A DNA stretch of 64,000 nucleotides from NCBI GenBank assembly GCA_016764435.1, contig JAESRX010000038.1, forward strand, positions 1-64,000. Direction: 5' to 3'. The position numbers and the translations under genes were made by a program. The stretch's first letter is position 1; each line of letters starts with the position of its first letter. Below the pieces are notes generated by a model. That model was given only the letters and a program-made list of their open reading frames with translations. It had not been told where the DNA came from and did no database searches. Positions 31,882-37,281 of the stretch are shown here, piece after piece. Origin of the DNA: Flavobacteriaceae bacterium. GTDB lineage: Bacteria; Bacteroidota; Bacteroidia; Flavobacteriales; Flavobacteriaceae.

Positions 31882-32169
31882 ATGCAAAAAACAGGCTTTG
31901 TATACATAATAGCGAGTAAACGCAATGGGACTTTGTACATAGGAGTTACAAATGATATCAGACGACGTGTACAGGAACATAAAACGAATCTAAATAAATG
32001 GTTTACTGAGAAGTATGGATGTAAAACATTGGTTTGGTATGAACGATTTGAGGATATACGAATGGCTATAGCGAGAGAAAAGAAATTGAAAAAATGGCTC
32101 CGTAATTGGAAATTAGAATTGATAGAGCAACAGAATCCTGACTGGAAGGATTTGTCGAAGGGATGGTGA
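31882..32169 (+). CDS. Small GIY-YIG endonuclease-domain protein
   Basis: 95 residues making one GIY-YIG domain: GFVYIIASKRNGTLYIGVTNDIRRRVQEHK contains the paired Y-I / Y-I-G strands and the catalytic Arg. A conserved Glu follows in the helix region (YERFEDIRMAIAREKKLKKW). Ends in NPDWKDLSKGW, usual for this stand-alone family (UPF0213-like, annotated as putative endonuclease). Cellular role unknown. It is isolated, with REP-like repeats on both sides and no operon partners, which suggests a mobile or domesticated element. Confidence 0.88.
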   Translation: MQKTGFVYIIASKRNGTLYIGVTNDIRRRVQEHKTNLNKWFTEKYGCKTLVWYERFEDIRMAIAREKKLKKWLRNWKLELIEQQNPDWKDLSKGW

Positions 32170-32829: not shown

Positions 32830-32859
32830 TTGTCGAGTCGAAATATTAGTATAGATTTG
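32830..32859 (+). promoter_or_regulatory. Promoter of the aromatic amino acid operon
   Basis: TTG at 32830-32832, exactly 19 bases of spacer, then TAGATTTG at 32852-32859. This is a full match to the Bacteroidota vegetative consensus TTG-N19-TANNTTTG. Transcription would begin near 32866, 13 bases before the leader-peptide ATG. Confidence 0.75.
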
Positions 32860-32878
32860 TCAATACAAAACCAGTACA

Positions 32879-32959
32879 ATGACAATTTTTAACACTTGGA
32901 GCTTCTATTATTTTTACTTTTATTTTAAAGTAGAACAGGAGACGGTACGTGTTAAGTAA
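32879..32959 (+). CDS. Aromatic-rich leader peptide (attenuator)
   Basis: A 26-codon frame, ATG to TAA, too short for ordinary gene calling. It starts MTIFNTWS and then has eight consecutive aromatic codons, FYYFYFYF, at residues 9-16. In total there are five Phe, four Tyr and one Trp. It lies between a consensus promoter and an intrinsic terminator, upstream of the Phe/Tyr biosynthetic genes, as in classical ribosome-mediated attenuation. A ribosome stalled on the aromatic run would leave 32939-32943 (GAGAC) free to pair with GTCTC in the 5' arm of the terminator at 32985-32989. Function inferred from arrangement; no expression evidence. Confidence 0.78.
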   Translation: MTIFNTWSFYYFYFYFKVEQETVRVK

Positions 32960-32980
32960 GATATAAACTAACAAATAACA

Positions 32981-33013
32981 AAAAGTCTCAAATTAATTTG
33001 AGGCTTTTTTTTT
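32981..33013 (+). terminator. Attenuator terminator before pheA
   Basis: AAAAGTCTCAAATT (32981-32994) pairs with AATTTGAGGCTTTT (32995-33008) with a single G-U wobble, and nine T follow from 33005. It lies 22 bases after the leader peptide stop and 21 bases before pheA. A terminator ahead of the genes it would switch off fits attenuation. Confidence 0.82.
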
Positions 33014-33033
33014 GTGATAAATCTAAGGAATTA

Positions 33034-33852
33034 ATGAAGGTAGCTATACAAGGAATCAAGGGGTCTTTTCACCACATTGTGGCGGAGCAGTATTTTGGGA
33101 CAAACACTCAATTACTCGAGTGCATGACATTTAGCGAAATGCCAGATTTATTACATACTAAAGAGGCAAGTGTTGCAATTATGGCTATTGAGAATTCAAT
33201 AGCGGGCGCTTTATTACCCAATTATGCCTTAATAGACGCGCATGATTTATCCATTTCTGGAGAGTATTATTTGCCGATTTTGCATAACTTGATGGTTTTA
33301 AAGGGGCAAAAAATAGAAGATATAACTGAGGTGTATTCACATCCAATGGCCTTGTTACAGTGTCACAAGTTTTTTAAAGACTACCCACATATTAAATTGA
33401 TAGAGGATCAAGATACAGCAGAAGTCGCACGTAGGATTCATAAAAAAAAATTAAAAGGGGTGGGAGCAATTGCAAGTGAGAAAGCCGCAACATATTATGA
33501 ATTAACTATTTTGGCAAGGGAGATCCAAACCATTAAAAATAATGCTACGCGTTTTGTGATTTTGAATAATTCGGGAATAAAAACAAATCCTTTGGCGGAT
33601 AAAGCATCTATAAAATTCATCTTAGAACATAAAACAGGGAGCTTAGGAGAGGTGTTAGAGGTTTTTTCTAAACACAAGGTTAGTTTATCTAAAATTCAAT
33701 CACTGCCGGTTATTGAATCACCTTGGGAATATGCTTTTTTTGCAGATTTGGTTTTTGGGAGTTATCAGAATTATCAGTCCGCTATGCATGAGGTAGCATC
33801 AAAAGTATCAGATTTGAAAATAGTAGGTGAATATAAAAAAAGCAAGAGATAA
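33034..33852 (+). CDS. pheA: Prephenate dehydratase
   Basis: Converts prephenate to phenylpyruvate, the Phe branch. 272 residues with no chorismate mutase domain. The N-terminal catalytic part begins KVAIQGIKGSFHHIVAEQYF, with IENSIAGALLPNY and the TRF motif in NNATRFVIL near residue 175. A C-terminal ACT domain (FILEHKTGSLGEVLEVFSKH, then SLPVIESPWEY) should bind Phe for feedback. ATG 33034 was chosen because an upstream TTG at 32998 lies inside the attenuator terminator. The stop overlaps the next start by one base. Confidence 0.94.
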   Translation: MKVAIQGIKGSFHHIVAEQYFGTNTQLLECMTFSEMPDLLHTKEASVAIMAIENSIAGALLPNYALIDAHDLSISGEYYLPILHNLMVLKGQKIEDITEVYSHPMALLQCHKFFKDYPHIKLIEDQDTAEVARRIHKKKLKGVGAIASEKAATYYELTILAREIQTIKNNATRFVILNNSGIKTNPLADKASIKFILEHKTGSLGEVLEVFSKHKVSLSKIQSLPVIESPWEYAFFADLVFGSYQNYQSAMHEVASKVSDLKIVGEYKKSKR

Positions 33853-35003
33853 TGCTGATCAATAAAGCACATAGATTAGAAGACGTTAAAGAATACTATT
33901 TCTCCAAGAAATTGAGAGAGGTAGCCGCCTTAAAAGCATCAGGGAAACCAATCATAAATATTGCGATTGGAAGTCCGGATTTAGAACCACCAGTGTCGGT
34001 GATAAATGCGCTTTCCTCAGCCATGGATGATGCGATGGCACATCAATATAAAAGCTACCAGGGAATTCCTGAATTCAGGGAAGCTGCGAGTGGGTTTTAT
34101 GAAAACCAATACCATGTAACACTTGATCCACTATCGGAAATATTACCATTAATGGGGTCTAAAGAAGGTATATTACATATTTCTATGGCCTTTTTAAATC
34201 ACGGAGACCAAGTATTGATTCCAAATCCAGGGTATCCAACTTATACTTCCGTAACTAAATTAGTAGGTGGGGAAACTGTTTTGTATGACTTGACGGAAGC
34301 GCAAGGTTATTATCCAGATTTTGAGAGCTTAGAAAAGCTAGATCTGTCTCGAGTAAAACTAATGTGGGTGAATTATCCGCACATGCCAACGGGAGTTAAA
34401 GCGACCGTTGAATTGTTCGAAAAATTGGTTTCTTTCGGGAAAAAACACCAAATTTTAATTGTTAATGATAATCCATATAGTTTTATTTTGAATGATACGC
34501 CACTTAGTATTTTGGCAATAGACGGGGCTAAAGAAGTCGCCTTGGAACTTAATTCTTTAAGTAAAACTTTCAATATGTCAGGCTGGAGAGTGGGTATGTT
34601 ATTAGGAGCGGCGTCTTATTTGGAGACGGTTTTACAGGTGAAGAGTAATATGGATTCAGGGATGTTTTATGGCATTCAAAAGGGAGCCATTGCGGCTATG
34701 AATCAACCAAAGGAATGGTTTTCCGATTTGAATTCTATTTATAAGAAGCGAAGGGAAATAGTTTGGGAAATATTGGATGTTTTTAAGTGCACGTATGCTA
34801 AAGATACCGCAGGATTGTTTGTTTGGGCAAAATTACCTGAAGGTAAAAATGCGGAAGAGTTTACGGATGAATTATTGTACCAAAAAGATGTATTTATATC
34901 TCCAGGAACGGTGTTTGGTCCTATTGGAAAAGGTTATATTCGTGTTGCTCTATGTGAAACGGAACAAGATTTAAACGAAGTATTAAAACGCATTAAATCC
35001 TAA
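33852..35003 (+). CDS. Class I/II PLP aminotransferase of the aromatic operon
   Basis: 383 residues, fold type I. It has INIAIGSPDLEPP at the N-terminus, YKSYQGIPEFREAASGFY, NPGYPTY, NYPHMPTGVKAT, NDNPYSFI and the PLP-lysine segment LNSLSKTFNMSGWRVGML. Its place between pheA and tyrA suggests transamination of phenylpyruvate and 4-hydroxyphenylpyruvate to Phe and Tyr, or of prephenate. This is inferred from context: the family also includes aspartate and diaminopimelate aminotransferases. A one-base overlap with pheA and three bases before tyrA indicate tight coupling. Confidence 0.9.
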   Translation: MLINKAHRLEDVKEYYFSKKLREVAALKASGKPIINIAIGSPDLEPPVSVINALSSAMDDAMAHQYKSYQGIPEFREAASGFYENQYHVTLDPLSEILPLMGSKEGILHISMAFLNHGDQVLIPNPGYPTYTSVTKLVGGETVLYDLTEAQGYYPDFESLEKLDLSRVKLMWVNYPHMPTGVKATVELFEKLVSFGKKHQILIVNDNPYSFILNDTPLSILAIDGAKEVALELNSLSKTFNMSGWRVGMLLGAASYLETVLQVKSNMDSGMFYGIQKGAIAAMNQPKEWFSDLNSIYKKRREIVWEILDVFKCTYAKDTAGLFVWAKLPEGKNAEEFTDELLYQKDVFISPGTVFGPIGKGYIRVALCETEQDLNEVLKRIKS

Positions 35004-35006
35004 GTG

Positions 35007-35870
35007 ATGAAACAAATAGTAGTAATAGGCTTAGGACTGATTGGAGGTTCTATGGCATTGGATTTAAAAAAACGAGTCCCCTCGGAAATTATAGGAGTGG
35101 ATGTGTCGGATGCGAATGCGGAAAGGGCGTTAAATAAAGGCATCATAGATAAAATAGGAACTATTGAAGCTGTAAAAAATGCGGATACGGTTATTGTAGC
35201 GGTTCCTGTAGATTTGACTTCTAAAGTAGTGTCGGAAGTATTGGATTTGATCGGGGAGAAAACATTGGTTTTTGATGTAGGATCGGTAAAAGAAATCATT
35301 TGTAAAACATTGAGTACGCACTTGAGAAGGAAAAATTTTGTAGCGGCTCATCCCATTGCAGGAACAGAGTTTTCGGGACCCGATGCTGCAGTCCATGGAT
35401 TGTTTGACGGGAAAGTGAATATTTTATGCGAAACAGAGAAATCGGATTGGAAGATTTTAGACAAAGCATTAAGTTTGTTTAAACTATTAAATATGCGAAT
35501 TAAAATGATGGACCCCGCAGCACATGATCGTCATATAGCATATGTCTCTCATTTGTCACATGTGAGTTCTTTTATGCTGGGAAAAACAGTCTTAGAAATT
35601 GAACGTAATGAAGAACATATTTTTGATATGGCAGGAAGTGGGTTTGCTTCGACTGTGCGATTGGCAAAAAGTTCGCCAGCAACTTGGACTCCTATTTTTA
35701 TGGGGAATAAAGAGAATTTATTGGCATCGTTGGATGGGTTTATTAAAAATTTGACAGAGTTTAGAAGCATTATTGAACAAGAAAACACCAAGGAATTGTC
35801 TAAAATAATGGACGATACCAATTATATAAAATCAGTATTGAGCGGTATTAAAGAAAATACCGACTCATAA
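35007..35870 (+). CDS. tyrA: Prephenate dehydrogenase
   Basis: Oxidative decarboxylation of prephenate to 4-hydroxyphenylpyruvate, the Tyr branch. 287 residues. Rossmann start IVVIGLGLIGGSMALDL, VIVAVPVDLTSKVV, FDVGSVKE, AAHPIAGTEFSGP and the catalytic-His region HDRHIAYVSHLSHVSSFML. No fused mutase or ACT domain. ATG 35007 is preferred to the GTG one codon earlier, which directly follows the previous stop. Confidence 0.94.
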   Translation: MKQIVVIGLGLIGGSMALDLKKRVPSEIIGVDVSDANAERALNKGIIDKIGTIEAVKNADTVIVAVPVDLTSKVVSEVLDLIGEKTLVFDVGSVKEIICKTLSTHLRRKNFVAAHPIAGTEFSGPDAAVHGLFDGKVNILCETEKSDWKILDKALSLFKLLNMRIKMMDPAAHDRHIAYVSHLSHVSSFMLGKTVLEIERNEEHIFDMAGSGFASTVRLAKSSPATWTPIFMGNKENLLASLDGFIKNLTEFRSIIEQENTKELSKIMDDTNYIKSVLSGIKENTDS

Positions 35871-35925: not shown

Positions 35926-37002
35926 ATGGAAAATAACAAAGAATTTAGACAGTGGTTGGATGCAATGAAATTGAGTCATCCATTAGTAATTGCAGGACCG
36001 TGTAGTGCGGAAACCGAAGAACAAGTAATGGCGACAGCAAGGGAATTGCAAAAAACAGATACCAATGTGTTTAGAGCGGGTATTTGGAAACCAAGAACAC
36101 GCCCTGGACAGTTTGAAGGAGTCGGAGAAATAGGATTGAAATGGTTGCAACAAGTGAAAGAAGAGACAGGGATGATGGTCACTACTGAAGTTGGGAACGC
36201 AGACCATGTAGAGAAAGCATTGAAGCACGGAATCGATATTCTATGGATTGGTGCACGTACCACCGTGAATCCTTTTGTAGTGCAGGAAATTGCAGATGCT
36301 TTAAAAGGGGTAGATATCCCTGTATTGGTGAAAAATCCTGTAAATCCAGATTTAGCCCTTTGGTTAGGTGCTGTGGAACGTATTCAGACTGCAGGAATTA
36401 CTCAGTTGGGAGTTATTCATAGAGGATTTTCGAGTTATAATTCCGGGCATTACCGTAATAAACCGAAATGGAGTTTACCCATCGAATTGAAAAAAGAATT
36501 TCCGGATTTACCTATCATTTTAGACCCTTCTCATATTTGTGGGCGTAGAGACACCTTATTAGATGTGTCGCAAACAGGATTGGATTTGAATTTTGATGGG
36601 TTTATGATCGAAACGCACATCGATCCTGATAATGCTTGGAGTGATGCTGCACAGCAAATTACTCCTGCCAGATTGGATGAGATTACCAAAGAATTGAGAA
36701 TTAGAAAGAAGAGTAGTACGGCGGAAGAATTTCAACGTAAATTAACCATGCATCGTCACGAATTGGATTTGCTAGATGCTAATTTAATTGAAATGTTGGC
36801 AGATAGAATGGGAATTGCAAATCAGATTGGAGCGATAAAAAGAAAAGAAAACGTGGCTATTTTACAAGGTGATCGTTGGTCAGAAATCTTAAATAGTATG
36901 GTAGAAACAGGGGTGAAATCAGGTTTGACCAAAGAGTTTGTAGAAACTATTTTTAAGGCAATACATGTAGAGTCAATTAACATTCAGCAAAAGAAGGACT
37001 AA
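35926..37002 (+). CDS. Bifunctional DAHP synthase / chorismate mutase
   Basis: 358 residues in two domains. Residues 1 to about 260 are a type I beta DAHP synthase (PLVIAGPCSAETEEQV, FRAGIWKPRTRPGQFEG, WIGARTTVNPFVVQEI, LVKNPVNPDL, DPSHICGRRD), which condenses PEP and erythrose-4-phosphate. About residues 270-358 are an AroQ chorismate mutase helix bundle (HRHELDLLDANLIEMLADRM, IKRKENVAI). The fusion joins the first step of the shikimate pathway to the first step of the Phe/Tyr branch and supplies the mutase missing from pheA and tyrA here. Last gene of the operon, followed by a strong terminator. Confidence 0.95.
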   Translation: MENNKEFRQWLDAMKLSHPLVIAGPCSAETEEQVMATARELQKTDTNVFRAGIWKPRTRPGQFEGVGEIGLKWLQQVKEETGMMVTTEVGNADHVEKALKHGIDILWIGARTTVNPFVVQEIADALKGVDIPVLVKNPVNPDLALWLGAVERIQTAGITQLGVIHRGFSSYNSGHYRNKPKWSLPIELKKEFPDLPIILDPSHICGRRDTLLDVSQTGLDLNFDGFMIETHIDPDNAWSDAAQQITPARLDEITKELRIRKKSSTAEEFQRKLTMHRHELDLLDANLIEMLADRMGIANQIGAIKRKENVAILQGDRWSEILNSMVETGVKSGLTKEFVETIFKAIHVESINIQQKKD

Positions 37003-37081: not shown

Positions 37082-37115
37082 AAAACGGCTAAGCTTTTGC
37101 TTAGCCGTTTTTTTT
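37082..37115 (+). terminator. Intrinsic terminator of the aromatic operon
   Basis: AAAACGGCTAAGC and GCTTAGCCGTTTT form a perfect 13-base-pair stem around a TTTT loop, followed by a T run to 37115. Lies 80 bases after the DAHP synthase gene. Confidence 0.9.
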
Positions 37116-37281
37116 AGGCGCTTAAAATCGGTTTATTATAAGTGTTCTTATGGTGGGTCGGGGCTTGAAAGTAATCACTTTTAAATGAGTAGACTTTACT
37201 GTTATGGATGCTTAAGCTACTTGTCGGAGACGAAGTCACTAATCACTGCTCCCTAGTTCTTATTTGTCAAAACAATTACAC

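Follow-up and report, generated by a model that had tools for sequence, protein, structure and literature searches.

The window, which is the whole 64,000-nucleotide stretch of DNA analysed here, contains four closely packed genes, the last ending at position 37002, for prephenate dehydratase (pheA), a class I/II aminotransferase, prephenate dehydrogenase (tyrA) and a DAHP synthase fused to chorismate mutase (DAHPS/CM). They are preceded on the plus strand by a region (32830–33037) in which, as read from the window sequence, a predicted promoter, a leader ORF and a terminator follow one another up to pheA. The host is a marine flavobacterium, and the nearest named relatives by protein identity are a Flavobacteriaceae MAG (92%) and Lutibacter (72%). 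A separate ORF of 95 codons also lies in the window, and by eye its product resembles a small protein of the GIY-YIG nuclease family. The coordinates of all features are collected in Table 1.

Table 1. Features of the pheA locus, in window coordinates.
Feature	Position	Strand	Details and basis
95-codon ORF, MQKTGFVYIIASKRNGTLYIGVTNDIRRRVQEHK...	31882–32169	+	Window sequence
Bacteroidota-type promoter (predicted), TTG-N19-TAGATTTG	32830–32859	+	TTG 32830–32832, TAGATTTG 32852–32859; predicted from sequence
Leader peptide ORF, MTIFNTWSFYYFYFYFKVEQETVRVK and stop	32879–32959	+	ATG 32879, TAA 32957–32959; 26 codons
Helix P1, 5' strand, TTTAACAC	32888–32895	+	Leader codons 4–6; fold, covariation
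Regulatory codons, FYYFYFYF	32903–32926	+	Eight consecutive Phe/Tyr codons (codons 9–16); direct reading
Antiterminator strand, GAGAC	32939–32943	+	Pairs with 32985–32989; covariation
Helix P1, 3' strand, GTGTTAAG	32949–32956	+	Just past the antiterminator; fold, covariation
Intrinsic terminator	32980–33013	+	13-bp stem, 4-base loop, nine T; hairpin 32980–33009; scan and fold
Antiterminator partner, GTCTC	32985–32989	+	In the terminator 5' arm; direct reading, fold, covariation
pheA, prephenate dehydratase with C-terminal ACT-like region	33037–33852	+	PF00800, 185.9 bits
Class I/II aminotransferase	33852–35003	+	PF00155, 189.2 bits
tyrA, prephenate dehydrogenase	35004–35870	+	PF02153 and PF20463; NF006307, 354.5 bits (cut-off 295)
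DAHP synthase fused to chorismate mutase	35926–37002	+	PF00793, 135.3 bits; PF01817, 67.8 bits
Likely operon-end terminator	37082–37117	+	Hairpin with T run; called on the minus strand by the scan, plus strand also flanked by a T run

An earlier reading of the letters alone (henceforth the sequence-only reading) had proposed that the genes behind the leader make Phe and Tyr, and the Pfam and NCBIfam assignments of pheA, the aminotransferase, tyrA and DAHPS/CM agree with it. Two of the matches are weaker than the rest: the ACT match of pheA reached 23.7 bits against a cut-off of 27, and the best NCBIfam models for the aminotransferase were of the LL-diaminopimelate aminotransferase type, all under their cut-offs. 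Judged from the operon context, this enzyme is presumably an aromatic aminotransferase. Since the operon makes both amino acids and also supplies the entry step of the pathway, it fits a leader that carries both codon types. Direct reading of the leader region likewise bore out the TTG-N19 promoter of Bacteroidota type, the 26-codon peptide with eight consecutive Phe/Tyr codons plus a Trp (at codon 7) and the distance of exactly 12 bases between the end of the last Phe codon and GAGAC. For the terminator, described earlier as a 14-pair hairpin with nine T, the nine T stood and the stem was shortened to 13 pairs by scan and fold. The Phe/Tyr operon is thus preceded by eight consecutive Phe/Tyr codons, and an intrinsic terminator separates the leader ORF from pheA, the first gene of the operon.

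When the 250 bases 5' of pheA were shuffled 4000 times with dinucleotide content preserved, an ATG-initiated ORF with eight consecutive aromatic codons never arose, and only two shuffles reached a run of six. Specificity was assessed over 1.18 Mb, comprising both strands of the window and of 80 pheA loci, by scanning for any short ORF that has a terminator close by and a run of five or more F/Y/W codons. The scan returned 69 sites, every one of them (69/69) a pheA leader, and found no such combination away from pheA in the 1.18 Mb covered.

Upstream regions were then compared at 200 loci: 80 from named genomes and 80 representing Flavobacteriaceae genera, with two further sets of 20, one drawn from the order and class outside this family and the other from the remainder of the phylum. 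A Phe/Tyr-rich ORF occupied the equivalent place at 172 of the 200 according to an automatic filter, and at three more on closer reading; the filter required a terminator, hence all 172 filtered leaders have the equivalent hairpin. Phe and Tyr codons were both present in 172/172. In a set of 62 mutually dissimilar leaders, used for the statistics below, the mean content was 5.4 Phe and 3.4 Tyr codons per leader, and 36 leaders also had a Trp codon. In 19 of these 62 the promoter pattern TTG-N17-21-TAnnTTTG was present no more than 75 bases 5' of the leader's start codon, mostly 17–21 bases before it, compared to 0.5% of shuffles.

Within the family, the aromatic run and the terminator upstream of pheA, whose presence in relatives had been named as a check on the sequence-only reading, were both retained in 79 of the 80 Flavobacteriaceae genera sampled. 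Over the whole sample of loci, two apparent exceptions were resolved, one because the leader begins with GTG (L176, seen in L210) and the other because it lies 469 bases upstream of pheA (L156, seen in L208). The sole genus of the 80 without a leader is that of L120/L209 (G235:C1). At this locus a repeated coding-like sequence (HGQPGHRCDIAVGA) is found directly upstream of pheA in the leader's stead. The arrangement at L156/L208 (G284:C1) is also unusual, with the leader about 470 and the terminator about 360 bases upstream of pheA, leaving a gap of about 330 bases between attenuator and gene. At the 20 loci sampled from the order and class outside this family, some families have the element and others do not: it was found at L164, L166, L168, L169 and L173–L182, in a weak form at L165, and not at L163, L167 and L170–L172. 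Elsewhere in the phylum it was present at one of about 20 loci (L199).

The sequence-only reading had regarded the 5-base antiterminator as its weak point. The five contiguous pairs of the window are indeed at the short end, the helix having 6–10 pairs in most relatives, but the two strands covary clearly. We permuted partners among the 62 dissimilar leaders in 20,000 trials, an approach suited to helices that vary in offset and are possibly pseudoknotted. Antiterminator strands scored a mean of 17.9 with their own terminator arms versus 13.6 with foreign ones (z = 12.2), and in 0/20,000 permutations was the observed mean attained. The test is conservative, given that relatedness among the leaders lifts the scores of foreign partners. 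The variants seen include GAGAC/GTCTC, GGGAC/GTCCC, AGGATT/AATCCT, GGGATT/AATCCC, AGGGCT/AGCCCT, GAGCGGTC/GACCGCTC and GCCGGG/CCCGGC.

The position of the antiterminator is similarly constrained, beginning 7–14 bases after the last aromatic codon in nearly all leaders, usually 10–11, whether it falls inside the ORF, across the stop codon (as in Lutibacter) or beyond it (just past the stop in L023 and L026). That it is kept in different frames, over the stop or after it, points to selection on the RNA rather than the peptide. This bears upon a different explanation of the locus, namely that the aromatic peptide is a functional small protein, e.g. a membrane protein, that the terminator simply ends its transcript and that pheA has another promoter. 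The conserved position of the ORF and its strongly hydrophobic product would suit such a protein. However, only the aromatic content is kept while order, length and C-terminus vary freely, the stop codon shifts relative to the antiterminator, GAGAC is maintained as a nucleotide element irrespective of frame and even past the stop, and the ORF occurs at pheA and nowhere else in the 1.18 Mb scanned, all of which makes a small protein of this kind very improbable.

Folding the leader with and without the segment that a ribosome would cover, as had been suggested earlier, separated two states. With the leader hidden by a stalled ribosome, the RNA ahead of the ribosome in the window folds the antiterminator (-8.9 kcal/mol) with a pairing probability of 1.00, versus 0.29 for naked RNA whose terminator 3' arm has yet to be transcribed. 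The corresponding means across the 62 leaders were 0.97 and 0.68, and the antiterminator was formed in the stalled-state fold in 98% of them. The full naked leader folds the terminator, with a mean probability of 0.92. Covariation, spacing and the stalled-state fold all point to an antiterminator that a stalled ribosome would free and that is in competition with the terminator.

A second conserved helix, P1, did not figure in the sequence-only reading. In the window fold it spans the aromatic codons, and its strands covary as well (permutation z = 8.6, 62 dissimilar leaders), with variants such as TTAACAC/GTGTTAA, ACACATAT/GTATGTGT, ATTTATAA/TTATAAAT, TGTATGG/CCATACA, CACTTAT/ATAAGTG and TACTACAA/TTGTAGTA; the search for covarying stems in relatives therefore yielded both P1 and the antiterminator. 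The naked fold of the window puts part of GAGAC within the P1 hairpin, so that P1 would act there as a protector that blocks the antiterminator. Because the naked antiterminator already averages 0.68, such protection, with the two helices exclusive, can be clearly seen only in the window and in about 29% of the dissimilar leaders, by ordinary folding with programs that cannot score pseudoknots.

In many leaders the P1 3' strand begins 0–7 bases past the antiterminator, which makes a pseudoknot of both helices geometrically possible. Attenuation could then operate with P1 and the antiterminator coexisting in a pseudoknot that stabilises antitermination, P1 being no protector at all. The strand order would permit an H-type pseudoknot, and ordinary folding in many relatives shows P1 not excluding the antiterminator. 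On the other hand, it is with part of GAGAC inside P1 that the naked antiterminator of the window drops to its low value, and in some relatives, such as L085, P1 runs straight into the antiterminator strand, making the two exclusive. On balance we consider the pseudoknotted form unlikely. The broader proposal of an old attenuator family extending through much of Bacteroidia, with mixed-codon sensing of Phe or Tyr and a pseudoknotted antiterminator around the stalled ribosome, seems to us quite unlikely as a whole.

Together, the anatomy of the leader, its conservation, the covariation of antiterminator and P1 and the folding behaviour suggest, as far as sequence can tell, that the pheA leader very probably attenuates transcription of the Phe/Tyr operon by a ribosome-mediated mechanism. 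From these observations we infer the start of transcription, the stalling, the termination or read-through in vivo and the response to both amino acids. Transcription would begin near 32866 and a ribosome would start the leader peptide. When charged tRNA-Phe or tRNA-Tyr is scarce, the ribosome would stall in the Phe/Tyr run and cover codons 4–6, so that P1 could not form and GAGAC, just ahead, would stay free; once GTCTC is made the two would pair, blocking the terminator and letting the polymerase enter pheA–aminotransferase–tyrA–DAHPS/CM. When both amino acids are ample, the ribosome would proceed to the stop codon and cover the P1 3' strand and most of GAGAC, and the terminator would form. 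A counterpoint to this step is that such a ribosome would cover GAGAC marginally, as the distance from the start of GAGAC to the end of the stop codon is 21 bases in the window. In the absence of any ribosome, P1 would hold GAGAC and the terminator would again form. Given that Phe and Tyr codons are interleaved, a shortage of either should open the operon, and the presence of both codons in every leader found suggests a built-in either/or sensor of Phe and Tyr. Reinitiation at pheA by the leader ribosome was also considered and rejected, the leader stop being too far away (77 bases) and separated from pheA by the terminator.

Comparison with Rfam gave no family matching the window attenuator at its threshold. 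T-box models matched neither the window at thresholds nor the leader when E values up to 10 were admitted. Apart from a weak alignment to Phe_leader, the sub-threshold matches, mostly to terminator-bearing sRNAs, were rejected. These searches concern a further explanation, in which a metabolite-binding riboswitch or a T-box would sense Phe/Tyr or uncharged tRNA and the ORF would be incidental. Both kinds of element likewise end in a choice between terminator and antiterminator. Nevertheless, at these limits neither the window nor the leader matched any riboswitch or T-box, the aligned leaders have no sequence-conserved aptamer core, and the Phe/Tyr codon run would be left unexplained. An element of either sort is extremely improbable here.

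Similar leaders were found in the same genome for other amino acids, all on the minus strand of their contigs. A His-codon leader (MYNLIHHTHHFFSDQHRVS) and terminator lie ahead of hisG (L203, G000:C93, 1208–1332), with a P1-like spanning helix of 9 bp (TTTAATTCA/TGAATTAAA). Ahead of ilvD there is an Ile/Leu/Val-codon leader (MENFNSLIIISLINVVVIRITRIREGMV) with a terminator (L207, G000:C96, 999–1137), in which GGAAGG/CCTTCC could be the antiterminator, and trpE is preceded by a Trp leader (MTRNTNIWWWNSLNQTSEQ) with a strong terminator behind it (L204, G000:C35, about 1330–1450). An antiterminator helix like that of pheA was not found in the trpE leader, and could be made out only weakly in the his and ilv leaders. 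With His, Ile/Leu/Val and Trp leaders each accompanied by a terminator, the organism seems to control several amino acids in this manner, and the pheA leader can be linked to these counterparts.

Most documented cases of leader-peptide attenuation come from Proteobacteria and Actinobacteria. In the Bacteroidota, it has been only predicted in the open-licence literature searched. Against this background the pheA leader provides a clean case that is deeply conserved, has two covarying helices and lacks an Rfam family of its own. The family could join Rfam, and culturable Flavobacterium would be a ready test bed.

The enterobacterial pheA attenuator (RF01859, Phe_leader) shares with the window a Phe-codon-rich leader, an intrinsic terminator and the control of prephenate dehydratase, and its model gives a weak, full-length alignment to the window leader (25.2 bits, E 0.024, below the gathering threshold of 55). 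The codons of enterobacterial pheL are for Phe only and not Tyr. The window leader differs in its mixed Phe/Tyr codons, its four-gene operon for Phe, Tyr and DAHP synthase, its phylum and its promoter type. Another candidate structured RNA of Bacteroidetes, Bacteroid-trp (RF01692), which we take to be a trp leader, concerns a different amino acid and matched neither the window at its gathering score nor the leader up to an E value of 10.

Closer precedents come from the phylum itself. An attenuator has been predicted ahead of Bacteroides thetaiotaomicron pheA > hisHb > aroA-aroQ > tyrA (PMC1173090, Table 7), which has the same four activities in one operon as the window; the tabulated entry derives from a database of predicted attenuators and is given there without leader peptide, codon content or antiterminator. 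For Flavobacterium psychrophilum, a species of the same family, a structured 5' element of the same gene, pheA, has been reported to be transcribed, to be conserved across Flavobacteriaceae and to lack any Rfam hit, in a paper that also proposes leader-peptide attenuation for amino-acid operons (PMC9723704); its account of the pheA element gives no mixed-codon peptide or covarying helices. A study that surveyed five bacterial genomes depicts two candidate F/Y uORFs (PMC6429828, Fig. 6b), which like the window leader are short ORFs containing Phe and Tyr, in their case before genes of the shikimate pathway. The sequence-only reading had supposed that the leader may be undescribed. This needs correcting: an attenuator had already been predicted (PMC1173090) and a structured element at pheA reported (PMC9723704). 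No paper with mixed Phe/Tyr leaders in Bacteroidota was found among the main texts of the open-licence literature. Three features are additions not found in the open-licence main texts searched, namely a codon run that mixes Phe and Tyr, a spread across the class and a P1 helix that covaries. With an attenuator predicted before and a pheA 5' element at hand, the window leader belongs to a known type, for which it is a well supported example.
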